Shown here one piece after another: positions 1 to 18,204 of a stretch of 44,175 nt of DNA (positions are counted from its first letter, which is position 1; the number at the start of each line of letters is the position of its first letter). The stretch covers positions 1 through 44,175 of the forward strand of contig PHFX01000162.1 in the NCBI GenBank assembly GCA_007618135.1. The letters run 5' to 3'. Both the position numbers and the translations under genes were made by a program. This DNA is from Candidatus Brocadia sp. WS118 (GTDB lineage: Bacteria > Planctomycetota > Brocadiia > Brocadiales > Brocadiaceae). The notes beneath the pieces were generated by a model. The model was given only the letters and a program-made list of their open reading frames with translations, made no database searches and was not told the origin of the DNA.

Positions 1-58
1 GTTCCTGGAGTTCCCCCCCATAAGCAGGTAGCCTTCCCCACATTAACATATCAACCTG

Positions 59-415
59 ATGCGCCTTCCCCCAACCCTCCCGACCCGTTGGGTACGGGAC
101 AGGCTCTCCGAAGGAAGGGGAGTGGGCTATAAGGGGCGGCAAAATGGTGGTCTCCCCCCAACGCAATTGGGCGAATACATGGACAAGCTCGGCGAAAAAA
201 TTGGCTGGCTCGTATTCTTCGGCCGGGATGAAAGCTGTTGTCAACTGACAACTTGCATGCCTTCGCTACAAGCTACGGCAGCCGGAGAGGGTTATCTGCT
301 GTATGTACCCTCGGCCGCCTATGAACAAAAAACGGGTAAGCCTTATGACTATAGTCCGTCCTACCCCATAGAGACTTATAGCAATGAGAAGGGCTGGAAA
401 AAACAAGCGCCCTGA
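59..415 (+). pseudogene. Fragment with a possible PD-(D/E)XK nuclease-like tail
   Basis: An open frame of 118 codons starts in low-complexity, C-rich DNA. The only part that looks like protein is around residues 37-58 (LGEYMDKLGEKIGWLVFFGR). This resembles the C-terminal helix and strand of AAA-ATPase-associated PD-(D/E)XK nucleases (the 'YLDKLGLKEGWLVVFDR' type). An in-frame ATG at 179 begins just before this stretch. The next part (residues about 75-118, rich in Tyr, Ser and Pro) does not continue that family and I do not recognise it. I read the segment as joined remnants rather than a working gene. It lies in the eroded zone upstream of xisI. The family link rests on one short stretch and is uncertain. 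Confidence 0.25.
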
Positions 416-539
416 TCTTATATTCCATACACCTGTTGATAAAGGGGAAAAATTACCGTAAATTTGAATGAACCCCCAAGACAACTTTCAGCAGTAGCCT
501 CAGTAGCCTGCCTCTTAATAGTAAAAGGCTTCACAACCA

Positions 540-686
540 ATGGCGCACGATTTTTTTCACCATATAGTAAAAGCTGCTCTTGAAAAAGATGGTTGGGAAA
601 TTACACATGACCCCTATGAATTGCGGCTCGATAATGAAGAAAATAAAGCACTACGAAAAAATAATACTGGAAATACTTCAGAATGA
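540..686 (+). pseudogene. xisH remnant (N-terminal 34 codons only)
   Basis: The frame from the ATG at 540 reads MAHDFFHHIVKAALEKDGWE and then ITHDPYELRLDNEE. This matches the start of XisH-family proteins (fdxN element excision controlling factor; AHDxxHxxVKxALxKDGWxITxDPxxL). The family is normally about 135-140 residues. Here the homology stops near residue 34, exactly where the start of xisI (ATG at 634) begins in another frame. The frame then runs to a stop at 684-686 through XisI coding sequence. An internal deletion therefore removed about three quarters of xisH and fused its 5' end to xisI. XisH is related to the endonuclease fold, and the remnant lacks that fold's core, so it should be inactive. 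Confidence 0.7.
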
Positions 687-972
687 GGTCATAGAACGCC
701 CCCATTCTACAGTAGAAGACATTATTATTACTGATAACAGAGCGCACCACTACCAACTGATCAGAACCGGGTGGGAGGACAATCAACGCTTTGTATATAC
801 CATCGTTTTTCATTTTCACATCGATCCAAACGGCAAGATCTGGCTGCTGCAAAATAATACGGATATCCCGATTACGGATGAGCTGCTCCGGCGCGATGTA
901 CCGGCCTCCGATATCGTCCTGGGGTTTCATCCGCCGGAATACCGCCAGTATACGGGCTTCGCCGCTGCGTAA
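634..972 (+). CDS. xisI: XisI-family protein
   Basis: A 112-residue protein, full length for the XisI family (fdxN element excision controlling factor). Hallmarks include DNRAHHYQLIRTGW (residues about 32-45), the DPNGKIWLLQNNTDIPI stretch and a C-terminal DIVLGFHPPEYRQYTGFA. I chose the ATG at 634, giving MKKIKHYEK, because the 18 codons upstream (from 580) are xisH-derived DNA read in a different frame. XisI normally works with, or is encoded beside, XisH. XisH is broken here, so this is an orphan partner. In cyanobacteria XisH/XisI control excision of the fdxN element. Their role in Bacteroidota, where they are common and often near mobile DNA, is not established. Confidence 0.8.
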   Translation: MKKIKHYEKIILEILQNEVIERPHSTVEDIIITDNRAHHYQLIRTGWEDNQRFVYTIVFHFHIDPNGKIWLLQNNTDIPITDELLRRDVPASDIVLGFHPPEYRQYTGFAAA

Positions 973-1045
973 AAATCGTCACCAAATACCGAAGATGAAT
1001 TTCGGCATGCTGTTATTGCAGTCCAGAATAGTGGGAGTGTTCAAA

Positions 1046-1078
1046 GTTCCTGGGTTCCTGAGTTTCCGAGTTCCTGTA
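1046..1078 (+). repeat. GTTCCTG word repeat
   Basis: Short imperfect tandem words (GTTCCTGGGTTCCTGAG, then TTTCCGAGTTCCTG) occur in the spacer after xisI. The same word family is present at positions 1-14 (GTTCCTGGAGTTCC). It has no coding sense and is one of several word-like spacer repeats in this window. Confidence 0.5.
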
Positions 1079-1101
1079 AACCAGTGAGTTAGCGAAATAT
1101 C

Positions 1102-1188
1102 GAATTGCTGCAATCTTTTCAAGGATTAACTGCCGAGGATATTACCAATGCGATGCGCTATTACCAGGAGCATCTCGTTGCCAGATGA
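1102..1188 (+). pseudogene. DUF433 antitoxin-like C-terminal relic
   Basis: An open frame without a start codon encodes ELLQSFQGLTAEDITNAMRY followed by YQEHLVAR and a stop. The pattern of a 'FPGLTxEDIxxALxYYxxH' tail matches the end of DUF433 proteins, small antitoxin-like proteins usually paired with a PIN-like DUF5615 toxin. Nothing recognisable lies upstream and no toxin follows. I read it as the last 28 codons of a lost gene. The motif is short, so the assignment is moderate. The stop codon lies inside the left arm of the following inverted repeat. Confidence 0.4.
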
Positions 1189-1256
1189 CACCTTTCGCCT
1201 TTAAGCGATAGCGCTATCAGCTAAGGTTCAGTGAATAGGCGAAAGATGTCACCTGG
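1181..1256. repeat. Inverted-repeat element 4 (core TAGCGCT)
   Basis: The left arm CCAGATGACACCTTTCGCC (1181-1199) pairs with GGCGAAAGATGTCACCTGG (1238-1256), with 17 of 19 positions complementary. The 38-bp loop contains a perfect 12-bp palindrome, GATAGCGCTATC, at 1207-1218. The core resembles the TAGCGCT core of the element at 18001-18162. The left arm includes the stop codon of the DUF433-like relic. It could form a cruciform or RNA hairpin. The function is unknown. Confidence 0.6.
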
Positions 1257-1351
1257 CTGAGCACTAAACACATACTAAAGTTGTCGCCTCACAGGGCTTC
1301 ATCACTTCATCACCACATCACCACATCACTGCCTCCTTCACCCCTAAAAAC
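1257..1351. other. Spacer with CATCAC word repeat before the Wza-like gene
   Basis: The spacer upstream of the export lipoprotein holds repeated CATCAC/CACATCAC words at about 1300-1330. I see no reliable Bacteroidota promoter (TTG, about 19 bp, TANNTTTG) and no gene. The promoter of the export operon is probably here or further upstream, but I cannot locate it by eye. Confidence 0.4.
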
Positions 1352-2128
1352 ATGCTCAAATACCTCCTCTACATACTATTACTGATAATATCCCTAAGCT
1401 CCTGCGTCTCCCACGGCGACCTGCTCAACTTCTCCCAGGGCGCCGAATTCTCCGACGTGCCCGTCGACATCGACAACCTGCCCCAACTGGCTATACAGCC
1501 GGACGACCTGCTCTCCATCCGCATCAAGTCGCTCGACCCGGTGGCGGCAGAGCCGTTTAATGTGGACCCGCCGGGCATGGCGAATCTGCAGGCAGGCGGC
1601 GGCATGCGCCCCCTCATCGGCTACCTGGTGGCCCGCGACGGCACCATCGACTTCCCCATGCTGGGTTCTTTGACAGTAGCGGGGTTGAGCACCGATGAGG
1701 TGCGGCTGCTCCTGCTGGAAAAACTGGCGCCTTTCCTGAAAGACCCGGTGGTGATGGTGCGCTTCCTGAATTTTCGGATCACAGTATTAGGGGAAGTGGG
1801 AGGGCCAGGAACCTATTTCGTGGCCAACGAACGCGTCACCATCCTCGATATGATCGGCCAGGCCGGCGACATCACGCCCTACGGCAACCGCAGCAACGTA
1901 CTGGTTATCCGCGAACACAACGGGCAACGCACCTTCGGGCGGGTCAACCTGCAGGACCGGGATATCTTTAAATCTCCTTATTTTTACCTGCAGCAGAATG
2001 ATGTGGTGTACGTGGAGCCGCTGGAGATACGAACTGCTTCTATTCGGGACCAGTCGCAGCGGATACTGCCCTGGTTGTCGGCGATTACGGCCTTGACGAC
2101 GCTGGTGATTACGCTGAGTAGGCTGTAG
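1352..2128 (+). CDS. wza: Wza-like polysaccharide export lipoprotein
   Basis: An outer-membrane polysaccharide export protein of 258 residues. The N-terminus is a lipoprotein signal with hydrophobic residues 5-16 and a lipobox ending at Cys18 (SLSSC). A Poly_export domain begins near residue 47 (LAIQPDDLLSIRIKSLDP) and includes YLVARDGTIDFPMLGSLTVAG. An SLBB domain follows at about 143-205 (ITVLGEVGGPGTYFV and ILDMIGQAGDITPYGNRSNV). A hydrophobic C-terminal segment (about 239-256) ends the protein, as in short Bacteroidota Wza homologues. E. coli Wza is longer, at about 380 residues. It should form the export channel that partners the Wzc-like kinase encoded next. The ATG start is well placed before the signal peptide. 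Confidence 0.92.
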   Translation: MLKYLLYILLLIISLSSCVSHGDLLNFSQGAEFSDVPVDIDNLPQLAIQPDDLLSIRIKSLDPVAAEPFNVDPPGMANLQAGGGMRPLIGYLVARDGTIDFPMLGSLTVAGLSTDEVRLLLLEKLAPFLKDPVVMVRFLNFRITVLGEVGGPGTYFVANERVTILDMIGQAGDITPYGNRSNVLVIREHNGQRTFGRVNLQDRDIFKSPYFYLQQNDVVYVEPLEIRTASIRDQSQRILPWLSAITALTTLVITLSRL

Positions 2129-2146
2129 GGGGGATATGAGTTTAGA

Positions 2147-2200
2147 AGTTGAGGAGTTGAGGAGTTGAGGAGTTCAGGAGTTGAGGAGTTGAGGGGTTAG
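2147..2200. repeat. GAGGAGTT tandem words
   Basis: About six imperfect copies of an 8-bp unit (GTTGAGGA / GAGGAGTT), one carrying a T-to-C change (AGTTCAGGAG), directly follow the Wza-like gene. Reverse-complement copies (CCTCAACTCCTCAAC at 2439-2453, AACTCCTCAAC at 2480-2490) occur on the other side of the palindromic element at 2228-2406. The whole spacer 2147-2520 is therefore roughly symmetrical. It is non-coding. Confidence 0.7.
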
Positions 2201-2227
2201 ATGGGGATCAAAAACTTTGAAAATATG

Positions 2228-2406
2228 GTAACTATTTAGGTTGGCTTCCGAACGGCATTTTCTGCCTTTGTTCGCCCCAACCCTGAAGGGTGCAAAGGCA
2301 GAAAATGCCTGGCCTCCCTTTGCGCCGTCGCCGAAGCGGCTTTGGCGCATAGGCGACAGGGCTGGGGCAAAGCCGGGCATTTTCTGCCGCTGACCTAAAT
2401 AGTTAC
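2228..2406. repeat. Nested palindromic element 1 (core GCCCCAACCCTGAAGGG)
   Basis: The outer arms are GTAACTATTTAGGT (2228-2241) and its perfect complement ACCTAAATAGTTAC (2393-2406). Inside, a 17-bp word GGCATTTTCTGCCTTTG (2254-2270) is followed by the core GCCCCAACCCTGAAGGGTG (2274-2292). Next comes the perfect reverse complement of the word (2293-2309), then a complementary half-core CAGGGCTGGGGCAAA (2357-2371), then a third 13-bp copy of the word (2376-2388). The same word-core-word'-core'-word order occurs at 6736-6908 with different words but a similar core. It is non-coding and could fold into long hairpins. Terminator, cruciform or mobile-repeat roles are all possible. Confidence 0.75.
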
Positions 2407-2534
2407 GTTTTTTGAACAGTTTCGAGGGCTGAGTGAGACCTCAACTCCTCAACTACCCAAGCCCTACACATAGCCCCTAAACTCCTCAACTAAACAAGCC
2501 CTGACACAGCCCCTCAACTACCACAAACAACACC
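2407..2534. other. Leader region before the kinase gene, with CTCAACT repeats
   Basis: Two imperfect tandem copies of a roughly 36-bp unit (CTCAACTACCCAAGCCCTAC at about 2449 and CTCAACTAAACAAGCCCTGA at about 2486) lie between the palindromic element and the start of the kinase gene. They are complementary to the GAGGAGTT words at 2147-2200. I see no ORF and no clear ribosome-binding site or promoter. Confidence 0.45.
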
Positions 2535-4937
2535 TTGAATAATAATACCTTAAACAACAACAACCTACCCTCCCCCCCGGAGCAGCAGGACGACCCCATC
2601 GATGTGCGGGAGCTCGTCATGAGCATCCTGCGCAACTGGTACTGGATTGGGCTTTGCGTGGGCATTGCTTTCTTTGCGGCGCGGTTTTACCTGCGCTACT
2701 CCGTGCCCTTGTACCAGGCCAGCGGGCAGATTCTCATCAAAGAAGACGCCAATAGCGGAGGCGCGCTCTCGGAAGAAGCCGTGCTGCAGGAAATCGGCAT
2801 CCTCAAATCCGGCAATAAGTTGGTGAATGAGATACAAATCCTGAAATCGCGCACCCTGATGCAGGAAGTCGTCAACAAGCTGGGGCTGGACGTGCAGTAC
2901 GTCGGGCAGGGGCGGATAAAGGATAGCGAGCTGTATGGCAACTCTCCCATTGTAGTGGATTCCGTACACTGGGGGGATGAAAAGCAAAGCGCAACGCTTG
3001 AAGTAGATATGCAGGGGGAATTGGACTACACCTACTTTGGGGAAGAGGAGGAGAAGAGCACCCACAATTTTGGACAAGCGCTTATCATCAAAAAGGATAC
3101 CTTCTGGCTAAGCCGGAACCCCAGCGCGGAAAGGAATATCCGCCTGCAGATCAAAATTGGGCAGGGGCCAGGGAGATACCTGCAAAAACTGAAGATCAAT
3201 ACCGTAGGCGATTATTCAAATGTGCTTGCGCTCGAAATGCAAGATCCCGTACCCCAAAAAGCCGCCGACATCTTGAATACACTGATCGAAGAGTACAATC
3301 AGGCGGCTATCGACGATAAAAACCAGGTGGCCAAAAAGACGCTGGAATTTATCGACGAGCGGCTGCGATTGCTGACGGATGAGCTCGGTAGCGTAGAGGG
3401 CGGGTTGGAAAGCTATAAAGAACGCAATAATATCCCCGGTGAAACCAGTACAGCCGTTAGTTTTGTGCTAGGTGAAGTTGCGCGGTACGACAACGAACTA
3501 ACGCAGCAACAAATCAAGCTCGAACTGCTGCGCTCGGTGGAAGAGATGTTGAGCGGAGATGTGGAGCAATACGAGCTCATCCCCGCCAATATTGTGCTGG
3601 GCGATGCCGCCGGGCTCGACCAGCAGATTGCGAGCTACAACGGATTGCTGCTCGAGCGCGAGCGCTTCAAGCGCTCCGCCGGGACGGGCAACCCGCAATT
3701 GCAGAGCCTCAACCAACAACTGGCCGGCATGCGGCAAAATATTGTGCAAAGCGTACGGGCGCTGCGGCAGAACCTGCAACTGTCGGCCCGGGAGACACAG
3801 CAAAAGCTCAGCCAACTGCAAAACCGCATCGACCAGGTTCCCCGGCAGGAGCGGGAACTGCTGGAAATCAAGCGGCAGCAGAATATCAAGGAAGCGCTTT
3901 ACCTGTTTTTGCTGCAGAAGAAAGAAGAAACTGCGCTTTCGGCGGCGATTACAGTGCCGAATGCGCGGGTGATCGATCCGGCGATAGCAAGCGGTGCGCC
4001 GATCTCGCCCAAGCCCATGCAAATATATGCAATATTTCTAATGCTTGGCTTTACGCTGCCGGTTGGGCTCATTTTCCTGAGAGAAATGCTCGATGATAAA
4101 ATCTACAGCGAAGCCGACATCAAGGGGCTGACCGCAACTCCGGTATTGGGCGCCATCGCGCAGAATAAAACTGATAATCCTATTGTTGTTAAAGCCAACA
4201 GCCGTACCGCCATTGCGGAGATGTTCCGCTTGCTGCGCACCAACCTAAACTACCTCTCCGGAGGGAATGCACAACAGAGCATATTGATCACTTCGGGCAT
4301 GGGTGGCGACGGGAAAACCTTTATCGCTATTAATCTGGGCATCAGCCTTTCGCTGGCAAAGAAAAAGGTGGTCATCCTGGGCATGGACCTGCGCAAGCCC
4401 AAACTCAGTAAGTATCTGATGGAGCAATCGGATTACGAAAATGTGGGGCTAACCAATTATCTGGTAAGCGAAATGATCCCGCAGGAGATTATTTACCCGA
4501 CCGGCATCAATGATGAGCTTTACTTTATGCCCAGCGGGCCGGTGCCGCCCAACCCGGCGGAATTGCTGAGCACGCCCAAGTTGAATATTTTATTTGAATA
4601 CCTCAGGGAGCAGTTTGACTACATCGTCATCGATACGGCGCCGGTGGGGCTGGTGGCGGATGCCTTTTTGCTGGAGCCTTATACCGATATCTCCCTCTTT
4701 GCGGTGCGCTACGCTAATACGCCAAAGGAGATGATTAAAGGGCTGGAGGAAATGCGGCGGGATGGGAAACTGAAAAACCCGGCCATCGTGCTGAATGGGG
4801 TGAAGAAGGGAAAGGGGTATGGGTATGGATATGGGTATGGGTATGGGTATGGGTATGGATATGGATATGGGTATGGGTATTATGAAGAGGATGGCAAAAA
4901 AAGCTGGATTCGTAAATTGATGCGCAAAAAATCTTGA
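2535..4937 (+). CDS. wzc: Wzc-like tyrosine autokinase / polysaccharide co-polymerase
   Basis: An inner-membrane protein of 800 residues that controls chain length and export. A Wzz domain opens with a first membrane segment at about residues 35-55 (WYWIGLCVGIAFFAARFYL), then a periplasmic coiled-coil region (about 250-470). A second membrane segment (about 495-515) follows the Pro-rich GAPISPKPMQIYA. The cytoplasmic BY-kinase has Walker A GMGGDGKT (588-595, Lys594), Walker A' around Asp618 (ILGMDLRKP) and Walker B IVIDTAP (Asp700). The C-terminus is a run of eleven Gly-Tyr pairs plus one Tyr (761-783), then 17 residues. This is the tyrosine cluster where BY-kinases autophosphorylate. The start is TTG at 2535, because homology covers the region upstream of the first in-frame ATG (about 2619). 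The stop overlaps the start of the next gene. Confidence 0.93.
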   Translation: MNNNTLNNNNLPSPPEQQDDPIDVRELVMSILRNWYWIGLCVGIAFFAARFYLRYSVPLYQASGQILIKEDANSGGALSEEAVLQEIGILKSGNKLVNEIQILKSRTLMQEVVNKLGLDVQYVGQGRIKDSELYGNSPIVVDSVHWGDEKQSATLEVDMQGELDYTYFGEEEEKSTHNFGQALIIKKDTFWLSRNPSAERNIRLQIKIGQGPGRYLQKLKINTVGDYSNVLALEMQDPVPQKAADILNTLIEEYNQAAIDDKNQVAKKTLEFIDERLRLLTDELGSVEGGLESYKERNNIPGETSTAVSFVLGEVARYDNELTQQQIKLELLRSVEEMLSGDVEQYELIPANIVLGDAAGLDQQIASYNGLLLERERFKRSAGTGNPQLQSLNQQLAGMRQNIVQSVRALRQNLQLSARETQQKLSQLQNRIDQVPRQERELLEIKRQQNIKEALYLFLLQKKEETALSAAITVPNARVIDPAIASGAPISPKPMQIYAIFLMLGFTLPVGLIFLREMLDDKIYSEADIKGLTATPVLGAIAQNKTDNPIVVKANSRTAIAEMFRLLRTNLNYLSGGNAQQSILITSGMGGDGKTFIAINLGISLSLAKKKVVILGMDLRKPKLSKYLMEQSDYENVGLTNYLVSEMIPQEIIYPTGINDELYFMPSGPVPPNPAELLSTPKLNILFEYLREQFDYIVIDTAPVGLVADAFLLEPYTDISLFAVRYANTPKEMIKGLEEMRRDGKLKNPAIVLNGVKKGKGYGYGYGYGYGYGYGYGYGYGYYEEDGKKSWIRKLMRKKS
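4815..4883 (+). repeat. GGGTAT hexanucleotide repeat encoding the Tyr tail
   Basis: Eleven tandem copies of GGGTAT or GGATAT, followed by one TAT, encode the alternating Gly-Tyr tail of the Wzc-like kinase. The unit is two codons, so slippage adds or removes one Gly-Tyr pair without a frameshift. The GGA variants are at units 3, 8 and 9. Confidence 0.95.
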
Positions 4938-6733
4938 AGCCACTGAAAAGGCTCCTTAAAAGCACGCTCCCTCACCTCGCCTACTTCTATAGCCACCTCC
5001 GCTATCGGTTGTTGCTGTTGCTGGCCGTCAGCATCCTGGTGGGGTTGCTGGACGGTCTGGGCCTGGCTATGTTCCTCCCCTTGTTGGAACTGGTGGCCGA
5101 TAAAGATGCTACCGCCACTTCAGAGCAGATGGGGAACCTGGCTTTTATCCTGGATGGTTTGAAAGGGTTGGGGTGGGAACTCAATCTTTCAGTAGTTTTA
5201 TTCACCATGCTTTTCTTTTTTGTCCTGAAGGGAGCAGCAAAGTGGCTCGAAACCTATTTAGGGGTCGTTTACCAACAATATTTCATCAGTAAAGTACGAG
5301 TTGAGAACATCGATGCCCTCACGAATTATAGCTACCATGCTTTTGCGACGGCCGATGCCGGCGCCATTCAAAACACGCTGAGCGGGGAAGTAGAGCGCGT
5401 TGTGCAAGCGTACAGGAATTATAGCCAAATAATGCAGCAGCTCGTTATGGTCGTCACCTATGCGGCCTTAGCTTTTATAGCCAACCCGGAATTTGCTGCA
5501 CTTGTAGTTGTCGGCGGAACTGTATCAAATTTTTTGTTTAGTGCCCTGTATAAAAAGACAAAACAATTATCAAAACAATTGGTCATCAGCAACCACTCTT
5601 TCCAAGGCTTACTAATCCAGAAAGTGGCTTTTTTTAAATACCTGAAAGCCACCGGAAGTATCCGGCAATATGCCCGAAATTTAAAAGAAAAGGTATATGA
5701 GATAGAAGATGCTGTAAGAAAAATTGGCATACTCAACAGTATTATGGCAGGGGTGCGCGAACCGCTAATGATTGGCATTGTGGTTGCCGTGATACTGATA
5801 CAGGTAAAAGTGTTCGGAGGGAGCCTCGCTACCATTATCCTCAGCTTGCTTTTCTTTTATCGCGGTTTGAATTCAGTAATGACGCTGCAAACGTCCTATA
5901 ATAAATTTTTGAGTTTTTCCGGTTCTTTGATCAACATGACCGATTTTGTTACCGGACTCAGGGCACATAAGGAAAAAACCGGCAGTTTAAAAGCTTCTGG
6001 CTCAAGCCAGATTGTATTAGAAAATATGTCCTTCAGCTATGTCGGTGACGAATGGATTGTACGGGATATCAATGTGTCTGTGCACCGGAACGAAACCCTG
6101 GCCCTCGTTGGTGAAAGCGGCTCAGGAAAAACGACCCTGATGAATATTCTGAGCGGATTGCTGGCCCCCACAGAAGGGCGAATGCTGATTGATAATGTGG
6201 ATAGCCGGGAGATTTATATGCCCGGCTTTCAAAAACGCATCGGCTATATCACCCAGGAACCCGTGATCTTTGATGATACCATCTTTAATAATGTCACCTT
6301 CTGGGCGAAAAAAACACCGGAAAACCAGCAGCGATTCACGGAAGCCTTGTGGAAAGCCAGCATCCTCAATTTTGTGATGGAGCAGCCGGAACAAGAAGAT
6401 GCCCGACTGGGAAATAATGGGATCAACCTTAGCGGAGGGCAAAAGCAACGCATCTCTATTGCCCGTGAATTGTACAAAGAAGTAGATTTCTTGTTTATGG
6501 ATGAAGCGACCTCTGCCTTGGATTCTGAGACGGAACGAGCCATACAGGAAAATATCGATCAACTGAAAGGGCATTATACCATCCTGATTATTGCGCACCG
6601 CTTGTCGACTATAAAGAATGCAGACCGGGTAGTGGTGTTAAGTAAAGGCGAGATTGAACGGATCGGCTCCTATCGGGAGTTGATTATACAATCAAGTGCA
6701 TTTAAACGTATGGTGGAACTGCAAGAACTGTAG
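4934..6733 (+). CDS. ABC exporter (fused membrane and ATPase domains), candidate flippase
   Basis: A 599-residue half-transporter with an N-terminal six-helix ABC_membrane domain (about 20-320) and a C-terminal ATPase. Walker A is GESGSGKT (393-400), the signature is LSGGQ (499-503), and Walker B ends at Asp523-Glu524 (FLFMDEA), followed by a His switch (IIAHRLS). The architecture is that of MsbA/PglK/Wzk lipid-linked glycan flippases. The TTG start at 4934 overlaps the kinase stop (TTGA), so the two are translationally linked. There is no in-frame ATG before the first helix region. Because the window has no Wzx, I infer that this protein may flip the lipid-linked repeat. A general exporter role cannot be excluded from sequence alone. 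Confidence 0.85.
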   Translation: MKPLKRLLKSTLPHLAYFYSHLRYRLLLLLAVSILVGLLDGLGLAMFLPLLELVADKDATATSEQMGNLAFILDGLKGLGWELNLSVVLFTMLFFFVLKGAAKWLETYLGVVYQQYFISKVRVENIDALTNYSYHAFATADAGAIQNTLSGEVERVVQAYRNYSQIMQQLVMVVTYAALAFIANPEFAALVVVGGTVSNFLFSALYKKTKQLSKQLVISNHSFQGLLIQKVAFFKYLKATGSIRQYARNLKEKVYEIEDAVRKIGILNSIMAGVREPLMIGIVVAVILIQVKVFGGSLATIILSLLFFYRGLNSVMTLQTSYNKFLSFSGSLINMTDFVTGLRAHKEKTGSLKASGSSQIVLENMSFSYVGDEWIVRDINVSVHRNETLALVGESGSGKTTLMNILSGLLAPTEGRMLIDNVDSREIYMPGFQKRIGYITQEPVIFDDTIFNNVTFWAKKTPENQQRFTEALWKASILNFVMEQPEQEDARLGNNGINLSGGQKQRISIARELYKEVDFLFMDEATSALDSETERAIQENIDQLKGHYTILIIAHRLSTIKNADRVVVLSKGEIERIGSYRELIIQSSAFKRMVELQEL

Positions 6734-6735
6734 CG

Positions 6736-6908
6736 AAGGGTTTTCTCATAAAAAATATTTGCGCTAAAAAACGACCCGAAAGGTCAAAAATCGCTGAAAT
6801 TTGCCCCAGCCCTAAAGGGAGTTTCAGCGATTTTCAACCTTTCTCCCTTTAGGGCCGGGGCAAAAAAGGTTGAAAATTGCTGAAACGGATTTTTATGAGA
6901 AAGCCCTT
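6736..6908. repeat. Nested palindromic element 2 (core GCCCCAGCCCTAAAGGGAG)
   Basis: The outer arms AAGGGTTTTCTCATAAAAA (6736-6754) and TTTTTATGAGAAAGCCCTT (6890-6908) match with one mismatch. The word AAAATCGCTGAAA (6787-6799) is followed by the core GCCCCAGCCCTAAAGGGAG (6803-6821). Next come the inverted word (6822-6834), the inverted core CTCCCTTTAGGGCCGGGGC (6843-6861, one mismatch) and a third word copy AAAATTGCTGAAA (6873-6885). AACCTTT/AAAGGTT also flank the second core. The element follows the ABC exporter stop closely and may also terminate its transcript. It shares design and core with the element at 2228-2406. Confidence 0.75.
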
Positions 6909-7009
6909 AAACTTTAGCGTTATGTTATCAAGTATCAACTTGTAAAAACAGGTGCAAATTACGAAGAAACCCAAATACCCCCTCTTAAACTTTCCCCTTA
7001 TCCCTTTAA

Positions 7010-8029
7010 ATGAACCTAACTAACAAAGCCCTGCTCATCACCGGCGGCACCGGCTCTCTCGGAAAGGCCTTGACATCACATATCCTGAAATCTAACCCGG
7101 ATATCAAACGCCTGGTCATCTTCTCCCGTGACGAACAGAAGCAGTATCAGATGGCGCAGGAGTTCCCAACCAACCAATTCCCCCAAGTCCGGTATTTCAT
7201 CGGTGATATCCGGGATTATGACCGCCTCAAGCGGGCCCTGAAGGGCATTCATTACGTCATCCACGCTGCGGCCATGAAACACGTCCCCATCGCGGAGTAC
7301 AACCCGATGGAATGCGTGAAGACAAATATCCTTGGAGCAGAAAATCTCATCAATGCCTGCCTTGAAACAGAAGTGGAGCGCGTAGTAGCGCTTTCTACCG
7401 ACAAGGCGGCCGCGCCGATCAACCTGTACGGCGCCACGAAGCTGGCTTCCGATAAGCTGTTCGTAGCCGCCAACAACATCACCGGCTGGAACCCGATCCG
7501 GTTCAGCGTGGTGCGCTATGGGAACGTCATGGGCTCCAACGGTTCTGTCATCCCCTTCTTCCTGAAAAAGCGCAAAGAGGGCGTGCTGCCGATCACTGAG
7601 CCGAAGATGACGCGATTTAACATCAGCCTGCAAGGGGGCGTGGATATGGTGATGCACGCGCTGGAACATGCCTGGGGAGGAGAGATTTTTGTGCCCAAGA
7701 TTCCTTCCTACCGCATTTTGGATGTAGCAGAAGCCATAGGGCCGGACTGTGAAAAGCCGGTCGTCGGCATCCGGCCGGGAGAAAAGATCCACGAGGAGAT
7801 GATCACTTCTTCCGATTCTTATTATACCTACGACTTAGGTAAATACTACGTTATTTTGCCTTCAACGCATAAGTGGAAGTTAGCTGATTTCATTGAAGCT
7901 TTTGGCGCTCAGAAAGTATCTCCTGAGTTTTCTTATAATTCCGGAAAGAACACGGAATGGGAGACGGTGGAAAGCCTTAGAATGCTCATTCAGGAGCATG
8001 TGGATCCGACGTTTGATGTTTATGTTTGA
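7010..8029 (+). CDS. pseB: PseB: UDP-GlcNAc 4,6-dehydratase (inverting)
   Basis: The first enzyme of CMP-pseudaminic acid synthesis. It converts UDP-GlcNAc to the UDP-4-keto-6-deoxy-L-arabino sugar with C5 inversion. It is an extended SDR of 339 residues with an NADP-binding TGGTGSLG (11-18). The PseB/FlaA1-type catalytic region STDKAAAPINLYGATKLASD has Asp131, Lys132, Tyr140 and Lys144. The HAAAMKHVPIAEYNPMECVK segment is diagnostic for the family. The length is normal. The gene starts the Pse module, 276 bp after the ABC exporter and beyond a palindromic element. Its last four codons and stop fall inside one copy of an exact 56-bp tandem duplication. The base composition is more GC-rich than the pse genes downstream of pseC. 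Confidence 0.95.
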   Translation: MNLTNKALLITGGTGSLGKALTSHILKSNPDIKRLVIFSRDEQKQYQMAQEFPTNQFPQVRYFIGDIRDYDRLKRALKGIHYVIHAAAMKHVPIAEYNPMECVKTNILGAENLINACLETEVERVVALSTDKAAAPINLYGATKLASDKLFVAANNITGWNPIRFSVVRYGNVMGSNGSVIPFFLKKRKEGVLPITEPKMTRFNISLQGGVDMVMHALEHAWGGEIFVPKIPSYRILDVAEAIGPDCEKPVVGIRPGEKIHEEMITSSDSYYTYDLGKYYVILPSTHKWKLADFIEAFGAQKVSPEFSYNSGKNTEWETVESLRMLIQEHVDPTFDVYV

Positions 8030-8126
8030 TCCACGGATTTACACTGATTGGGACACAGATTTACACAAATGATGTTTATGTTTGATCCACGGATTTACAC
8101 TGATTGGGACACAGATTTACACAAAT
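8015..8126. repeat. Exact 56-bp tandem duplication including the pseB 3' end
   Basis: Positions 8015-8070 and 8071-8126 are identical 56-bp copies starting GATGTTTATGTTTGATCCAC. The first copy contains the last four codons and stop of pseB (Asp-Val-Tyr-Val-stop), and the second copy repeats them outside the gene. The perfect identity indicates a recent duplication, or an assembly artefact. The body of the unit is made of the ATTTACAC/GATT word family. Confidence 0.95.
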
Positions 8127-8154
8127 TTAGATCACAGATTTTCGCAAGATTGGG

Positions 8155-8556
8155 GTGGATTTGGATGAGCTGAACTTTGCAGAGGAAGAATTTCTACTGG
8201 GTGAGGAAACTTATCAGATTATTGGGGCGGCGATGGCTGTGCACCGAGAGCTAGGTCATGGTTTTCTGGAAGCGGTTTATCAGGAAGCGCTGGCTTTAGA
8301 GTTTTTGGAAAAGCACATTCCGTTTGAACAAGAAAAGCCACTGGAAGTCCAATACAAAGGCAGGCCGCTCAGGAAAAAGTATTTTACAGACTTCCTTTGC
8401 TTTGATCAAATCATCATAGAACTTAAGGCGATGGATGGCATACATGATGATCACCTGGCTCAGGTTTTGAACTACCTCAAAGCTACCAACCTGCGCCTTG
8501 GCCTTATTTTGAATTTCGGCACGCCAAGCCTCCAATACAAAAGAGTCATCCTCTAA
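8155..8556 (+). CDS. GxxExxY protein
   Basis: A small protein of 133 residues of the GxxExxY family, PD-(D/E)XK-like. It contains HRELGHGFLEAVYQEALALE (residues about 29-48), which holds the name-giving G-x-x-E-x-x-Y, then FEQEKPLEVQYKGRPLRKKY and a nuclease-like strand pair LCFDQIIIELKA. The start is GTG at 8155, since the first in-frame ATG would fall in the middle of the conserved first helix. The function of the family is unknown. Members are scattered through accessory DNA and often flanked by low-complexity words, as here. The gene sits between pseB and pseC, two steps of one pathway, with repeat-rich DNA on both sides. This suggests a later insertion. Confidence 0.8.
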   Translation: MDLDELNFAEEEFLLGEETYQIIGAAMAVHRELGHGFLEAVYQEALALEFLEKHIPFEQEKPLEVQYKGRPLRKKYFTDFLCFDQIIIELKAMDGIHDDHLAQVLNYLKATNLRLGLILNFGTPSLQYKRVIL

Positions 8557-8704
8557 GCCAATCTGTGCATTGTCCGAAAAAAATTGTACCCCCCTCAAAA
8601 TCTGTGCTAATCAGTGCGTAATCTGAGAAAATCTGTGGAAAACAAAAAAAATTGTAGCCCCCAATAAAAATCTGAGAAAATCTGTGAGTAATCTGAGAAA
8701 ATCT
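8557..8704. repeat. AATCTGTG / AATCTGAGAAAATCTGTG word repeat
   Basis: The spacer between the GxxExxY gene and pseC consists of imperfect repeats of AATCTGAGAAAATCTGTG (around 8618, 8668 and 8689) and two copies of an AAAAATTGTAxCCCCC segment (around 8578 and 8647). The last copies run into the possible N-terminus of PseC. No gene is seen. Confidence 0.7.
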
Positions 8705-9919
8705 GTGGACCCCATCCCCTACGGCCGCCAACACATCACCGACGAAGACATCCAGGCCGTCGTTGATACCCTGCGCTCCGACTACCTCACACAAGGGCCC
8801 CGCATCCCCCAATTTGAGGAAGCCTTCGCGGAATACATAGGCAGCGAGTATGCCGTAGCCGTAGCCAACGGCACCGCTGCCCTCCACCTTTGCACCCTGG
8901 CGCTAGGCGTCAAGGCCGGCGATAAAGTCATCACTACCCCGATCACCTTTGCCGCTTCCGCCAACTGCGTGCGCTACTGCGGAGGCGAAGTGGCCTTTGC
9001 CGATATCGATCCGGAGACGTACCTCCTGGATATTGATAAAGTCCGCGAATTGCTGGAAGCCGCTCCCAAAGGCGCCTATCAGGGGATTATCCCGGTAGAC
9101 TTTGCCGGGCGGGCGGTGGATATGGAAGCTTTTCGGCAACTGGCAGATGAACACGACCTTTGGATCGTCGAAGACGCCTGCCACGCTCCCGGCGGATACT
9201 TCATCGATAGCCAAGGGCAGCAACAGCTGTGCGGCAACGGCAATTTCGCCGACCTGGCCATCTTCTCCTTCCACCCGGTCAAGCACATCGCCACGGGCGA
9301 AGGGGGAATGATCACTACGAATAATAAAGAGCTGTACGAAAAGCTCCAGGTGCTCCGCACTCATGGCATCACTAAAGACAGCAGCCAGTTTCAAAACGGC
9401 CTTGAATTTGCCCTCGGCCAACCGCCAACCGCTAACAGCCAATGGCCAGGCTGGTACATGGAAATGCAAACCCTCGGCTACAACTACCGCCTGACCGACT
9501 TCCAGGCAGCCCTCGGCCTCAGCCAACTCAACCGGGCAGAGGAAGGGCTGAAGCGCCGCCATGAAATCGCAGCAAGATACTATGAAGCATTCAAAAACAT
9601 ACCTCAAATCACCGACCGCAACCACGAATCAGTCAACAGCCGACAGCCAACCCTCAACCCCCACGCCCACCACCTCTACGTAATCGAAGCACAAGGCCGC
9701 TTAGGGTTATACAACTACCTGCGGGAGCACAAAATATATACCCAAATCCATTACATCCCCTGCCATTTAATGCCTTACTATCGGAAGCAAGGATGGAAAG
9801 AAGGGGATTTGGCGAATGCGGAAGCGTATTATAGGGGGTGTATTAGTCTGCCGATGTATCCGGCATTGACTGAGGATGAGCAACTCCTGGTCATTGACAC
9901 AACAACAAACTTTTATTAA
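8705..9919 (+). CDS. pseC: PseC: UDP-4-keto-sugar aminotransferase
   Basis: A PLP-dependent aminotransferase of the DegT/DnrJ/EryC1 family. It makes UDP-4-amino-4,6-dideoxy-N-acetyl-L-altrosamine from the PseB product. The start IPYGRQHITDEDIQAV and the segment LTQGPRIPQFEEAF are typical of PseC. The PLP lysine is Lys193 in SFHPVKHIATGEGG. I chose GTG at 8705, giving about 404 residues. Another GTG at 8684 would add seven residues (MSNLRKS) encoded by the upstream word repeat. Two segments look inserted compared with usual PseC proteins: around GQPPTANSQWPG (9413-9448) and DRNHESVNSRQPTLNPH (9613-9663). Both are encoded by related low-complexity words (AACCGCTAACAGCCAA, CAACAGCCGACAGCCAA) but keep the frame. 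Confidence 0.93.
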   Translation: MDPIPYGRQHITDEDIQAVVDTLRSDYLTQGPRIPQFEEAFAEYIGSEYAVAVANGTAALHLCTLALGVKAGDKVITTPITFAASANCVRYCGGEVAFADIDPETYLLDIDKVRELLEAAPKGAYQGIIPVDFAGRAVDMEAFRQLADEHDLWIVEDACHAPGGYFIDSQGQQQLCGNGNFADLAIFSFHPVKHIATGEGGMITTNNKELYEKLQVLRTHGITKDSSQFQNGLEFALGQPPTANSQWPGWYMEMQTLGYNYRLTDFQAALGLSQLNRAEEGLKRRHEIAARYYEAFKNIPQITDRNHESVNSRQPTLNPHAHHLYVIEAQGRLGLYNYLREHKIYTQIHYIPCHLMPYYRKQGWKEGDLANAEAYYRGCISLPMYPALTEDEQLLVIDTTTNFY

Positions 9920-9925
9920 GAATTT

Positions 9926-11692
9926 ATGACAACGTTTATTATCGAAGTGGCTAACTGCCATGGCGGCGACAAGAACTATCTATTTTCTTTAATAGAGGAA
10001 TTTGAACGTTTCGACGGACATGGTATGAAGTTTCAGCCTTTGCATCCTGACCAAATAGCTACCAAAGACTTTGAATGGTACCCTGTATATCAAAAGTTAT
10101 TATTCAACGCTTCAGAGTGGTCAGAAATAATTTCAAAGGCTGCTCAAACAAAAAAGATTTGGCTAGACCTGTTTGACACCTACGGGGTACAGATATTGAA
10201 TGAAAATTTGTCTTTGATTTCGGGCATTAAGCTGCAAGCTTCAATTTTGTATAACGAACAGGTAATTAATGCCCTTAAAGTCACGGACTGCTCAAATCTT
10301 CGCCTAATAATAAACGTAAGCGCGCTAAGCATAGATGAAATCCGGGAAAGGTTAGAGAGCCTTGAAGCGGGCATTGCCCCCAAAGAAATATTATTGGAAG
10401 TAGGCTTTCAGTCTTATCCCACCTTGTTAGAAGATAGCGGGCTCAATAAACTGCATGCTTTGCGTTCTCAATTTGAGAACAGCTTGGTTTTTGCAGACCA
10501 CGTCGAAGGAACATCAGAAGATGCCATAACTTTACCCTTAATTGCGAGTACGATGGGGGCGGATATCATTGAAAAGCATGTAATGCACAGTAAGTTCGAG
10601 ACCAAATACGATCATTTTTCAGCAATAAAACATGATGTGTATGAAAAGTTGGTGACAAAAATCAACCAGTATGCTGAACTCCCTCATAAACCATTCATAA
10701 ACGATAAGGAGAAGCGGTACCTGAGCAATAGTATACAAATACCCTTAGCCGGCACCGGCCTGCCTAAAGGGCATGGGATATCCGTTTCTTCAGACCTTAA
10801 TTTCAAGAGGAGCGGGCAAAAAGGATTAAGCGTCACAGAATTAAAAAAATTAATCAATGAAAAAAATATTCTGGCAGTTTCAGTGGACGAAGGAAGTTCA
10901 TTTAAAAAAGAATACTTTAAAAAAGCTACCATAGCTACAATTATTGCGGGGCGATTAAAGTCTTCAAGGTTAAAGCGAAAGGCAATCCTGAAAATCGGAG
11001 ATTTGCCTTCTATTGAAAAATGTATTCAGAGCTGTTTAAGAATCAAAGACACCAATTATACGGTACTTGCAACGTCAACTGTGGAAGAGGATGCAGAGCT
11101 GGAGCAGTACACTTATTCATCTGCTGTCCACTTTCATCGCGGCCATCCTGAAGATGTTATTCAACGCTACCTGGACGTTACCGATAAATACAATATTGAC
11201 GTGGTAATCAGGGTGACAGCCGATATGCCTTATGTATCACCGGAAATTGCTGAAATTCTTCTGAAGTCCCATTTTGAATCGGGTGCAGACTACACCGCAG
11301 CTAAAGCGTTTTCTGTCGGAACAGCTCCCGAAATCATCAATACACAGGCATTACAAACAGTTAAGGAACATTTTCCAAGCGCAGACTACTCCGAATACAT
11401 GACCTGGTATTTCCAAAATAACAAAGAGCATTTCAGGGTAAATATAGTGGAGTTGCCTGCTCGTCTTGTAAGAGATTACAGGTTGACCGTGGATTATCAG
11501 GAGGACCTGGATATGATGAACAAACTTCAGGACTACTTTGATGAACATAAGATGGAGGGTACCACGGAAGAGTTGTTTAGCTTTTTAGACGCGCATAAAA
11601 CAGTTGCAGAAATCAATGGGCATATTGGGTTAAAATACAAAACGGATTCAGATTTAATTAATACACTTAATATAGTTACAAAAATATCATAG
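9926..11692 (+). CDS. NeuB-like synthase fused to SpsF/PseF-like cytidylyltransferase
   Basis: A two-domain protein of 588 residues. Residues about 1-265 follow the NeuB/PseI sugar-acid synthase family. They have EVANCHGGD (7-15), MKFQ (34-37), and GADIIEKHVMHS (211-222), equivalent to the GAxVIEKHF motif. A divergent SAF-like stretch lies at about 270-330. Residues about 335-588 are a cytidylyltransferase of the SpsF/PseF type, with IIAGRLKSSRLKRKAI (339-354) as the nucleotide-binding loop, GHPEDVIQRYLDV and TADMPYV (Asp433). It is the only PseF-like domain in the Pse module, so I infer that it activates Pse to CMP-Pse. A canonical pseI exists separately at 14292, so the role of the synthase half is unclear. 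The region is AT-rich compared with pseB and pseC. Confidence 0.75.
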   Translation: MTTFIIEVANCHGGDKNYLFSLIEEFERFDGHGMKFQPLHPDQIATKDFEWYPVYQKLLFNASEWSEIISKAAQTKKIWLDLFDTYGVQILNENLSLISGIKLQASILYNEQVINALKVTDCSNLRLIINVSALSIDEIRERLESLEAGIAPKEILLEVGFQSYPTLLEDSGLNKLHALRSQFENSLVFADHVEGTSEDAITLPLIASTMGADIIEKHVMHSKFETKYDHFSAIKHDVYEKLVTKINQYAELPHKPFINDKEKRYLSNSIQIPLAGTGLPKGHGISVSSDLNFKRSGQKGLSVTELKKLINEKNILAVSVDEGSSFKKEYFKKATIATIIAGRLKSSRLKRKAILKIGDLPSIEKCIQSCLRIKDTNYTVLATSTVEEDAELEQYTYSSAVHFHRGHPEDVIQRYLDVTDKYNIDVVIRVTADMPYVSPEIAEILLKSHFESGADYTAAKAFSVGTAPEIINTQALQTVKEHFPSADYSEYMTWYFQNNKEHFRVNIVELPARLVRDYRLTVDYQEDLDMMNKLQDYFDEHKMEGTTEELFSFLDAHKTVAEINGHIGLKYKTDSDLINTLNIVTKIS

Positions 11693-11763
11693 TTTTTGTA
11701 CAGGACGCAATTTTGCATTACTAAGCAAGCTTTTCGCTTTTTAAACGTGTTAAATAAACAAGT

Positions 11764-12390
11764 ATGAATTTTAAAACCGAACAAGAAAACTTTTGGGCAG
11801 GTGATTTCGGCAATGAATATATCAAACGCAACCAAGGTGAAATGCTATTAGCTTCTAATCTGAATTTTTTTACGAAAGCACTGCGTCAAGCAGATAAAAT
11901 CAACTCATGCATCGAGTTTGGAGCAAACATTGGAATGAATCTCAAGGCTTTGAAGTTGTTACAGCCTGGCTTAAAGATAAAAGGAGTAGAAATCAATGAA
12001 ACAGCAGCCAAACAACTTAAAGCCGTAATTGGAATGGACAACGTCTACAATCAATCTATACTTGATTTTGAGCCAATTGAAAAAGTGGATTTATCTTTAA
12101 TTAAAGGTGTACTGATTCATATCAATCCAGATATGTTGCCTGTTGTATATGAAAAATTATACTATGCCAGCAGCCGATATGTTTTGATAGCAGAATATTA
12201 TAATCCATCACCTGTCACCATAAATTACAGAGGGCATACAGATCGTTTATTTAAAAGGGATTTTGCGGGAGAAATGTTAGACACCTATTCTGATTTAAAA
12301 TTAGTTGATTATGGATTTATATACAAGAGAGATGTAAAATTCCCACTTGACGACATTACCTGGTTTTTATTGGAAAAGAGAAATCATTAG
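11764..12390 (+). CDS. Pseudaminic acid biosynthesis-associated methylase
   Basis: A class I SAM-dependent methyltransferase of 208 residues that matches the Pse-associated methylase family (TIGR03587 type). The N-terminal signature is EQENFWAGDFGNEYIKRNQG (6-25). The SAM-binding motif is CIEFGANIGMNL (49-60), followed by GVEIN and the VLIHINPDMLP motif. Family members sit in Pse clusters and are thought to act on the nonulosonic acid or its precursor, but the methylated position is not known. It lies between the synthase fusion and the broken pseH. The ATG start is well supported because the signature begins at residue 6. Confidence 0.85.
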   Translation: MNFKTEQENFWAGDFGNEYIKRNQGEMLLASNLNFFTKALRQADKINSCIEFGANIGMNLKALKLLQPGLKIKGVEINETAAKQLKAVIGMDNVYNQSILDFEPIEKVDLSLIKGVLIHINPDMLPVVYEKLYYASSRYVLIAEYYNPSPVTINYRGHTDRLFKRDFAGEMLDTYSDLKLVDYGFIYKRDVKFPLDDITWFLLEKRNH

Positions 12391-12415
12391 TTATGCAGTC
12401 CAACAATGTGTTTTA

Positions 12416-12641
12416 ATGCCATTTCCCTATCAATACCAGTGCCTTTCGCAGCAAATCTTTAGCAATAGCCTATTTTCCATAGTACCTATACGCTATGAAG
12501 ATCGACATATTATCATGCAATGGCGCAATGAGCAAATTTATCATCTGCGGCAAAACAAACCACTAACCAAAGAAGAACAAGGCCGCTATTTCAATGAAGT
12601 GGTCGCCACACTAGTCGATGAAGGATAACCCGATCAGATAA
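12416..12641 (+). pseudogene. Truncated pseH (GNAT N-acetyltransferase)
   Basis: The ATG at 12416 opens a 70-codon frame matching the N-terminus of PseH-type GNAT enzymes: VPIRYEDRHIIMQWRNEQIY followed by HLRQNKPLTKEEQGRYFNEV. A TAA at 12626-12628 interrupts the frame at DEG-stop. The same frame continues with PDQII, the expected next residues of the family (xxQPDQIL), so TAA replaces a codon such as CAA. Homology ends there and the pseG start follows at 12642. The acetyl-CoA-binding core (about the last 90 residues) is deleted. PseH would acetylate the 4-amino group of the PseC product, so that step must be done by something else, perhaps the formyltransferase at 13667. Confidence 0.8.
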
Positions 12642-13673
12642 TTGAATCCCTTAGCAGATACATCACGTATATTATTCCGGGTAGACGCCAATGCTCAGAT
12701 TGGCTGGGGTCATTTTTATCGGTGCCTGGCACTAGCTCAGATGTTGCAAAAGGATTTCGACATTTGCTTTGCCATGGCCGCTCCGGAGGCTGCAACTCTT
12801 TCTGCGCTTTCTGAAAAGGGCTTTGAAGCCATAGCGTTGCCGGCTCAGGAATATACCGTGCCGGATGAGCGAGGAACACAAGAACTGTCTTTTGATTTAG
12901 GCAATCAACTTGATAAAATAGACATTGTCGTATTAGATGGCTATTGGTTTGGCCCCGCCTATCAACAAGCACTGCGTAAATATCCCGTTAAAATTGCCAT
13001 TATAGAAGATGACGGCAAGGGGTGCTATTGGGCCGATTTAATCATCAATCATGCTCCTGGTATTATGCCACAGGCTTATTATGCGCAACCTTATACGCAA
13101 TTTGCCCTTGGTCTTGAATACGCCTTGCTCCGGCCGGCTTTTCTTGAACAAGCCAGGAAAGTACGCAGCTTTGATAAAATTGAAACTCTGTTCATTTGCT
13201 TTGGCGGTTCCGATTTTAAAAACCTGACTCAAAGCACCCTTGAGGTAGCTCTTGAATTCAAAGGGTTTAAAAAAATCATCGTTGTAACCGGGGCTGCTTA
13301 TCAATTTACCGAAGGTTTCACGTACCTTGTAGCACTTGACCAACGCATCGACCATCGCCATAGCTTAGGCGAGCCACAAATGCTACATGCTATGCTGGAA
13401 GCTGAGCTGGCTATTGTTCCGGCAAGTGGAATTTTGTTTGAATGCCTTGCAGCTCGTTTACTGGTTATTAGTGGCACTTATACGGAAAACCAATTAAAAA
13501 TATATGAAGGTTTTCGAAAATTGAATATTTTTTTTGACGCCATCGATTTCAGTCCAAGCAATCTATCTATGGCTTTAAAAGCAGTTTTCAGAAGCAAAAA
13601 CGAGAATCAGGTTACTACGATTGACGGGCGATCTTATATACGGCTTCAGCAAATTTTTTCTGCTTTATGCTAA
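12642..13673 (+). CDS. pseG: PseG: UDP-sugar hydrolase
   Basis: A GT-B-fold hydrolase that removes UDP from UDP-2,4-diacylamino-2,4,6-trideoxy-L-altropyranose. It has 343 residues. The N-terminus has RVDANAQIGWGHFYRC (13-28, with His24 in the catalytic G-x-GH motif). The UDP-binding half has LFICFGGSDFKN and later LAIVPASGILFECLAA. The start is TTG at 12642, 12 codons before the conserved RVDA. There is no in-frame ATG before the motif. The gene follows directly on the pseH remnant, with 13 bp between that frame's stop and the TTG, and it overlaps the next gene by 7 bp. Confidence 0.93.
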   Translation: MNPLADTSRILFRVDANAQIGWGHFYRCLALAQMLQKDFDICFAMAAPEAATLSALSEKGFEAIALPAQEYTVPDERGTQELSFDLGNQLDKIDIVVLDGYWFGPAYQQALRKYPVKIAIIEDDGKGCYWADLIINHAPGIMPQAYYAQPYTQFALGLEYALLRPAFLEQARKVRSFDKIETLFICFGGSDFKNLTQSTLEVALEFKGFKKIIVVTGAAYQFTEGFTYLVALDQRIDHRHSLGEPQMLHAMLEAELAIVPASGILFECLAARLLVISGTYTENQLKIYEGFRKLNIFFDAIDFSPSNLSMALKAVFRSKNENQVTTIDGRSYIRLQQIFSALC

Positions 13674-14305
13674 AGGTGCAAATACTAGTCGATAATCCAA
13701 CTTCTTGGATTATCCCATACGCTGAGAAATTAGTTTTGTTGCTCCAGCAAAAAGGCTGCCAAGCTAATCTAATTCATGAACATGAAGAGGTGATAAAAGG
13801 AGATATTTTATGCTTACTCTCCTGTGAGCGAGCCTTCAAAAATTTAACCCTAAATCGTCATAATCTTGTTGTTCACGAAAGTGCCCTGCCCAAAGGAAAG
13901 GGATGGTCGCCGGTAACCTGGCAAGTATTGGAAGGTAAATCTACCATACCAGTAACCCTCTTCGAGGCAATAGAAGAAATTGACGCAGGAGAAATTTACA
14001 GCCAATTATTCATTGAACTCAATGGCCATGAACTACTTCCAGAAATAAAACATCAACAAGGGGAAAAAACCATACAACTCATTCTCGATTTTATCATTCA
14101 ATATCCCAATATAAAAGGTGTCCCTCAGAAGGGTATTTCTTCGTTTTATCCAAGGCGAAAACGGAAAGACAATCAACTTGATATACACAAAACCATTGAA
14201 GAACAATTCAATCTGCTTAGAGTATGTGATAATGAGCGCTATCCGGCTTTCTTTATTCGAAATGACAGAAAATACATAATCAAAATATACCATGGTGTTG
14301 AATGA
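13667..14305 (+). CDS. Formyltransferase-like protein, candidate replacement for PseH
   Basis: A 212-residue protein with a formyltransferase core (Formyl_trans_N). The motif VVHESALPKGKGWSPVTWQV (68-87) contains His70 in H-x-S-x-LPxGxGxxP. EAIEEIDAGEIY (100-111) supplies the conserved Asp106. The enzyme would use 10-formyl-tetrahydrofolate to N-formylate an amino sugar. The gene lies between pseG and pseI and overlaps both, in a pathway where pseH is broken. I infer that it formylates the 4-amino group of the PseC product, giving a 7-formamido Pse. 5-acetamido-7-formamido Pse is known from some Pseudomonas aeruginosa glycans. The substrate is not proven by sequence. Confidence 0.75.
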   Translation: MLKVQILVDNPTSWIIPYAEKLVLLLQQKGCQANLIHEHEEVIKGDILCLLSCERAFKNLTLNRHNLVVHESALPKGKGWSPVTWQVLEGKSTIPVTLFEAIEEIDAGEIYSQLFIELNGHELLPEIKHQQGEKTIQLILDFIIQYPNIKGVPQKGISSFYPRRKRKDNQLDIHKTIEEQFNLLRVCDNERYPAFFIRNDRKYIIKIYHGVE

Positions 14306-15347: not shown

Positions 15348-15348
15348 T

Positions 15349-16023
15349 ATGAGGTATATTCTTTTAACCGAAAAAACATGGCACGATAAACTCTTCGACC
15401 ATCTTTTAAACAGAAAGGAAGAAGACTGGTTTCGGATAACCCAAAAAGAAAATTTCAACTTAAGTGAACTTAACAAAACTAATCCAGAAAAAATATTTAT
15501 CCCCCACTGGTCTCATATCATTCCCGCTGAAATATATGAACGATATGAGTGCATTGTCTTCCACATGACCGACCTGCCATACGGAAGAGGTGGGAGTCCT
15601 CTACAAAACCTAATTGTTCGGGGGCATCAAGAAACAAAGATTTCCGCAATCCGCATAAATCAAGGAATTGATACGGGCAAAATCTACTTAAAAGCCCCTC
15701 TTTCTTTACTTGGGACTGCCGAAGAGATATTCCTGCGAAGTTCAGAGGTGATCCAAAGGATGATCGCAAAAATTATAGAAACGAATCCAGAACCGCAAGA
15801 ACAAAAGGGGGATGTAGTAAATTTTAAGAGACGTAAAGCGGAGGAAGGAGATATAAGCAAACTTGAAAGCCTTGAGCAAGCCTATGACTATATCCGTATG
15901 CTTGATTGCAATGGCTATCCTTCTGCCTTTCTGGAAACAGAAACTTTCCGGTTTGAATTTTCACGGGCATCACTTAAGGCAGATCAATCTATAATTGCTG
16001 ATGTTAGAATCACTAAGAAATAA
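15349..16023 (+). CDS. Formyltransferase-like protein
   Basis: A 224-residue formyltransferase-family protein of a different subgroup from the one at 13667. The motif VFHMTDLPYGRGGSPLQNLI (70-89) has His72, and INQGIDTGKIY has the conserved Asp109. The tail (KRRKAEEGDISKLESLEQAY, then DYIRMLDCNGYPSAFLET) is a small C-terminal domain that recurs in sugar-locus formyltransferases, including the one at 13667 (LLRVCDNERYPAFF). It starts 1 bp after pseI stops and overlaps the PIG-L deacetylase gene. The pairing suggests that deacetylation followed by formylation of Pse or its precursor is possible. The substrate is not known. Confidence 0.75.
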   Translation: MRYILLTEKTWHDKLFDHLLNRKEEDWFRITQKENFNLSELNKTNPEKIFIPHWSHIIPAEIYERYECIVFHMTDLPYGRGGSPLQNLIVRGHQETKISAIRINQGIDTGKIYLKAPLSLLGTAEEIFLRSSEVIQRMIAKIIETNPEPQEQKGDVVNFKRRKAEEGDISKLESLEQAYDYIRMLDCNGYPSAFLETETFRFEFSRASLKADQSIIADVRITKK

Positions 16024-18162: not shown

Positions 18163-18204
18163 TTAGATGGCGACAAGAACTAACCGGAAAATGAGGAAGC
18201 AAGG

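Follow-up and report, generated by a model that had tools for sequence, protein, structure and literature searches.

The window, by which we mean the whole 44,175-nucleotide stretch of Candidatus Brocadia sp. WS118 DNA that was analysed, carries near its start a wza-like gene, a gene for a putative BY-kinase of the PCP-2a type and an ABC transporter gene, and the kinase gene ends in an array of hexanucleotide repeats. The features of this region are as follows.

1352–2128, forward strand: Wza-like outer-membrane polysaccharide export protein, the partner of the kinase (PF02563, SLBB)
2535–4937, forward strand: Wzc-like BY-kinase (PCP-2a), 801 codons or about 800 aa, with an uncertain TTG start codon at 2535 (PF02706, PF13807, AAA_31, TIGR01007)
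4296–4319, forward strand: Walker A motif of the kinase, GMGGDGKT, intact
4368–4394, forward strand: Walker A' region, VVILGMDLR, with Gly in place of the first Asp of the DxDxR consensus
4620–4643, forward strand: Walker B motif of the kinase, YIVIDTAP, intact
4815–4880, forward strand: eleven in-frame GGGTAT/GGATAT hexamers encoding (Gly-Tyr)11 (read from the letters, Tandem Repeats Finder and a period-6 score)
4881–4883, forward strand: an extra TAT codon that ends the tyrosine tail and brings it to 12 Tyr (read from the letters)
4934–6733, forward strand: ABC transporter (MsbA/PglK-like), overlapping the kinase stop

In the kinase, Wzz (PF02706, E = 8e-11) and GNVR (PF13807, E = 3e-14) domains, each over its gathering score, lie N-terminal to a P-loop kinase domain (AAA_31), and the protein scores 122.9 bits with the TIGR01007 model (polysaccharide biosynthesis tyrosine autokinase), above the model's threshold of 108.05. 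Its sequence matches to solved structures are Wzc, CapB, Etk, BceF, and VpsO, with Wzc (7nhr, E = 5e-44) as the top PDB match. Together with the Walker A and B motifs, the wza and ABC transporter neighbours, and a C-terminal cluster of 12 tyrosines within the final 40 residues, these matches identify the product as a predicted PCP-2a BY-kinase and the array as its putative tyrosine tail; a preliminary description of this DNA had likewise taken the array for the tyrosine tail of a BY-kinase. The glycine of the Walker A' region (LGMDLR) is shared by 53 of the 110 GY-tail kinases in which the motif was found; Asp stands at that position in 38 and Glu in 12.

The same description had counted eleven GGGTAT/GGATAT units encoding Gly-Tyr pairs, and this count stands, in frame, with the correction that the hexamers stop at 4880 and are followed by a lone Tyr codon. 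The 66 bases comprise GGATAT at units 3, 8, and 9 and GGGTAT at the remaining eight, and the count of eleven is taken from one assembly of 299 contigs. The C-terminus reads VLNGVKKGK-(GY)11-YYEEDGKKSWIRKLMRKKS-stop, or, written with the lone tyrosine set apart, eleven GY pairs followed by Y-EEDGKKSWIRKLMRKKS, so that 17 residues remain between (GY)11-Y and the kinase stop. Tandem Repeats Finder reports period 6, 11.0 copies, 93% matches, and a score of 111. The period-6 run score is 44, whereas none of 100 windows simulated with a first-order Markov model exceeded 10. The array is thus far beyond chance, and the gene's own codon use does not explain it: all 12 tail tyrosines are encoded by TAT, against 7 TAT and 21 TAC codons elsewhere in the kinase gene; the third-position difference between units is 0.22, where the codon use of the gene itself predicts 0.57 (z = -5.05); the joint probability of the tail codons given the usage of the window is about 6e-7; and simulation with the gene's own codons gives p < 0.001 for the homogeneity of the tail. 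Relative to own-gene codon use, this homogeneity ranks fourth among 101 GY tails. No more than four identical units nonetheless follow one another (units 4–7, 24 bp), and with its three GGATAT interruptions the array is not the long uninterrupted tract expected of a contingency locus.

The closest kinases found, L311 and L312, come from two genomes of the order that holds G103, are 67% identical to the kinase of the window, and group with it with clade support of 100/100. The gene order wza-kinase-ABC transporter is common to all three loci, the Wza-like protein upstream of the kinase being 77% identical, and the flanks of the tails are alike (VLNGVK-GKG and YYEED). Between these flanks the tails differ in length: KGK-(GY)11-YEED in the window corresponds to KGK-(GY)5-YEED in L312, with four GGGTAT units and one GGCTAT, and to KGK-GNGYGYGYGYGNGYGY-YEED in L311, with eight G[Y/N] units. 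Three units separate L311 from L312, although these two kinases share 87% identity. Unit number therefore differs among related alleles, as it would at a contingency locus, but here as 11 against 5 against 8 at 67% identity, and in-frame variation in length is real on an evolutionary scale; among 30 kinases of the same order the longest GY run spans 1–12 units. Since the unit is 6 bp, changes in its number keep the frame, as the preliminary description had pointed out. Pure or near-pure runs recur in three further kinases of the clade, and identical neighbouring hexamers are not avoided there (48 observed against 45.5 expected; lag 2, z = +4.1). The absence of scrambling in the window tail and in several tails of its clade fits recent duplication, and the codon sequences suggest that hexamer duplication has acted repeatedly in this lineage. 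Expansion rather than contraction is the probable direction, as judged from the codon homogeneity of the window tail in a comparison of three close kinases.

Gly-Tyr tails as such are common. Scanning of species genomes returned at least 120 stretches of at least seven GGNTAY units; the majority of the stretches listed form the C-terminal ends of BY-kinases, in Bacteroidota, Bacillota, Pseudomonadota, and other phyla, and at least five units occur in 69 of 395 genomes evenly sampled from the phylum that holds Agaribacillus (G066). What distinguishes the window tail is therefore its purity rather than Gly-Tyr itself. The poly-GY BY-kinases of Bacteroidota and other phyla, for example those of Chryseobacterium, Winogradskyella, and Hymenobacter, likewise carry (GY)n after a VLN(D/G)-like motif, with n mostly 5–15 in the sets examined, but the units of these tails are scrambled by synonymous changes and adjacent hexamers are seldom identical, whereas the window array is near-pure. 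Across the tails collected, with the window included once, 187 adjacent identical hexamers were observed against 241.6 expected under random order (z = -5.0). After removal of the window and of relatives above 70% DNA identity, and with Tyr-Gly codon context weighted, the remaining 94 tails hold 150 identical neighbours against 191.9 expected (z = -4.64), 61 tails lying under expectation and 30 over it. By genus, the avoidance amounts to z = -4.4 in Chryseobacterium and z = -3.8 in Winogradskyella, where congeneric species are non-independent.

Codon-pair context is ruled out as the cause of this avoidance because the z of -4.64 persists after weighting, and a general alternation of nearby codons for the same residue is ruled out as well, Gly being slightly positive and Tyr neutral outside the tails. 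In Chryseobacterium and Winogradskyella, the Tyr third base was not found to differ more often when the Gly third base is the same, and in the diverse set this interaction has the opposite sign, which argues that avoidance acts on both positions and not solely on exact hexamer identity. An excess at lags 2 and 3 indicates that 12- and 18-bp duplications may also contribute. The simplest inference from these sequences is that runs of identical hexamers would lack stability, so that tails with interruptions last longer or are favoured by selection; synonymous break-up of GY repeats should stabilise the tails that carry it.

Other kinase tails indicate how fast such lengths change. Among 29 Chryseobacterium orthologs, which have 7–10 units, unit number is equal within each of the five pairs that exceed 90% identity (the same three species supply three of these pairs), although their third positions already differ by 20%, while about two thirds of the pairs at 83–90% identity differ, by about one unit (mean below one). 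Among plasmid kinases of lactobacilli, two Lentilactobacillus buchneri alleles that are 96.6% identical both have nine units, and five Levilactobacillus alleles with a related Gly/Tyr tail, 98–99% identical, are constant in length. In Companilactobacillus, by comparison, plasmid kinases that are 98.7–99.0% identical stand exactly one 12-bp in-frame tail unit apart, the alignment placement of this indel differing in two of the comparisons. Most plasmid kinases of L. plantarum, like those of the Lactococcus pNZ4000 type, lack a GY array and were uninformative here. Unit-sized change thus occurs, though not rapidly everywhere.

The function of such tails has been described in other species. The tail of E. 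coli Wzc inserts into the active site of the neighbouring subunit, the octamer disassembles on phosphorylation, and sequential phosphorylation from the C-terminal end has been proposed (PMC8285477). According to a review, total tail phosphorylation must pass a threshold to drive the cycle, with no single Tyr decisive; polymers tend to be longer or more uniform when phosphorylation is lower, and species differ in how many tyrosines the tail has, this number being poorly conserved (PMC12220298). By analogy with these systems, tail phosphorylation may likewise influence polymer length here (PMC12220298; PMC8285477). The kinase of the window shares with the PCP-2a BY-kinases E. coli Wzc, V. cholerae VpsO, and P. 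gingivalis Ptk1 the Wzz and GNVR domains, the Walker A and B motifs, a Tyr-rich tail, and a wza neighbour; the E. coli Wzc tail, however, is irregular, with Tyr 708, 713, 715, and 717 (PMC8285477), whereas the window encodes (GY)11 in near-identical codons. A short Tyr-Gly repeat also forms the autophosphorylation tail of S. pneumoniae CpsD/Wze, a role only predicted for the window array, and among natural 19A subtypes one differs from others by a single repeat in wze, [YGX]3 against [YGX]4 (PMC8519296). CpsD/Wze, though, belongs to a PCP-2b split kinase with three to four 9-bp units, as opposed to a single chain with eleven 6-bp units. Threshold behaviour together with the natural wze variation makes it plausible that a change in unit number could shift the kinase cycle, although eleven units may instead sit on a plateau.

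Close orthologs of the kinase were found neither in the assembly's own genus nor in its family or order (best match about 29% identity), phage records gave no match, and no paralog with a tail of this kind is present in the assembly. Four BY-kinases native to the family have KYYYQYYYQYYY-type tails with periodic Tyr and no glycine, and the tails native to the assembly's own relatives are of the YYYQYYYQYYY type rather than GY. The first 4 kb are compositionally atypical for the bin (GC 0.525; tetranucleotide correlation 0.36, against 0.81–0.97 for other contigs), whereas the contig beyond 8 kb resembles it. The ABC transporter is syntenic in the two nearest relatives, and in the nearest syntenic locus PglD-like and NeuB genes come next, an arrangement that the window shares farther downstream. 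The locus was either horizontally acquired or the contig misbinned; neither affects the reading of the repeat.

Several other features of the window were recorded. GC content drops near 10 kb, from about 0.5 over positions 1–10000 to about 0.40 over 10000–44175. Positions 9926–27732 hold three NeuB-like synthases, cytidylyltransferases, a UDP-GlcNAc 2-epimerase, PIG-L deacetylases, formyltransferases, and a polysialyltransferase-like protein, and constitute a locus for a nonulosonic-acid polysaccharide in which modules have been duplicated. The spacer between wza and the kinase contains about seven octamers GAGTTGAG (2138–2198) and, 240 bp on, units of the inverted complement CCTCAACT (2439–2519), which flank a palindromic stretch at 2212–2422; this arrangement is possibly a mobile or regulatory element, and no further copy of the stretch was found elsewhere in the assembly. 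Intergenic repeats also occur at 8014–8126 (a 56-bp tandem in two exact copies) and at 8577–8709 (a 70-bp unit in about 1.9 copies), both composed of CACAGATTTA- and AATCTGAGAAAATC-like decamers.

Four accounts of the array were weighed. A contingency-type rheostat on polysaccharide length or output had been suggested in the preliminary description; on this account, frequent slippage would let cells with 10, 11, or 12 units coexist in a population and differ in the length or amount of their polymer. The divisibility of the unit by three, the exceptional purity of the array, the labile tail lengths of its clade, and the natural unit variation of pneumococcal wze all speak for it, and simple-sequence contingency loci do resemble the window in carrying a short tandem repeat within a surface-polysaccharide gene. 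The window repeat, however, is in frame and therefore allows no on/off switching of the kind seen in the Wzc-like gene Amuc_1413 of Akkermansia, where a G9/G10 frameshift is at work (PMC13055324); it is also interrupted and known from one assembly. Because no pure run exceeds four units, because the close alleles of Chryseobacterium, Levilactobacillus, and Lentilactobacillus usually keep the same length, and because most GY tails avoid identical adjacent hexamers and so look protected from slippage, where a hypermutable tract would require the reverse, we do not favour this account and regard it as unlikely. Of the earlier proposal, the BY-kinase tail, in-frame change by units, and variation in tail length between relatives are supported.

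It is very unlikely that selection at the protein level alone accounts for the array, with Gly-Tyr kept for function and uniform codons arising by coincidence or local bias with no history of slippage: GY tails are indeed widespread and conserved as protein in BY-kinases across many phyla, but the gene favours TAC three to one beyond a tail that uses only TAT, the codon probabilities given above run against coincidence, and L312 carries the same GGGTAT unit half as many times. An altered unit number introduced by the assembler, which the fragmentation of the assembly might suggest, appears highly improbable, since an array of 66 bp, interrupted three times internally, is short enough for reads of common length to cross as a rule, and its flanks are intact and in frame.

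We consider it probable that the locus encodes an ordinary Wzc-type BY-kinase and that duplication of hexamers has recently extended its tyrosine tail. Matched flanks around differing unit numbers, codon homogeneity, and unit-sized indels in other BY-kinase tails support length evolution of the slippage type, although the homogeneity of the units could also stem from gene conversion. Under the favoured reading, a GGGTAT founder would have been the starting unit, tandemly duplicated in recent time by strand slippage or unequal exchange, taking an ancestral tail of perhaps 5–8 Gly-Tyr units to eleven with the frame and flanks undisturbed. As in other PCP-2a kinases, the tail of each subunit is most likely phosphorylated by its neighbour in the ring; the build-up of phosphotyrosine would loosen the octamer, a phosphatase would reset it, and polymer length and export would be paced by this cycle. 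A longer tail would offer more sites and a longer reach, so that unit number would be at most a slow evolutionary tuning knob. A broader life cycle of GY tails, in which duplication resizes a tail and slippage-preventing synonymous scrambling then locks it, so that the window tail would still be resizable and its length a heritable dial for polymer size in the lineage, is a more doubtful though possible extension.

Literature searches returned no report of repeat-number variation in GY tails. The natural series of 5, 8, and 11 units within conserved flanks provides ready-made alleles for testing the number of tail tyrosines against polymer length in Wzc-type systems, and the avoidance of identical neighbours suggests that selection guards the length of the tail from slippage; if so, length would matter.
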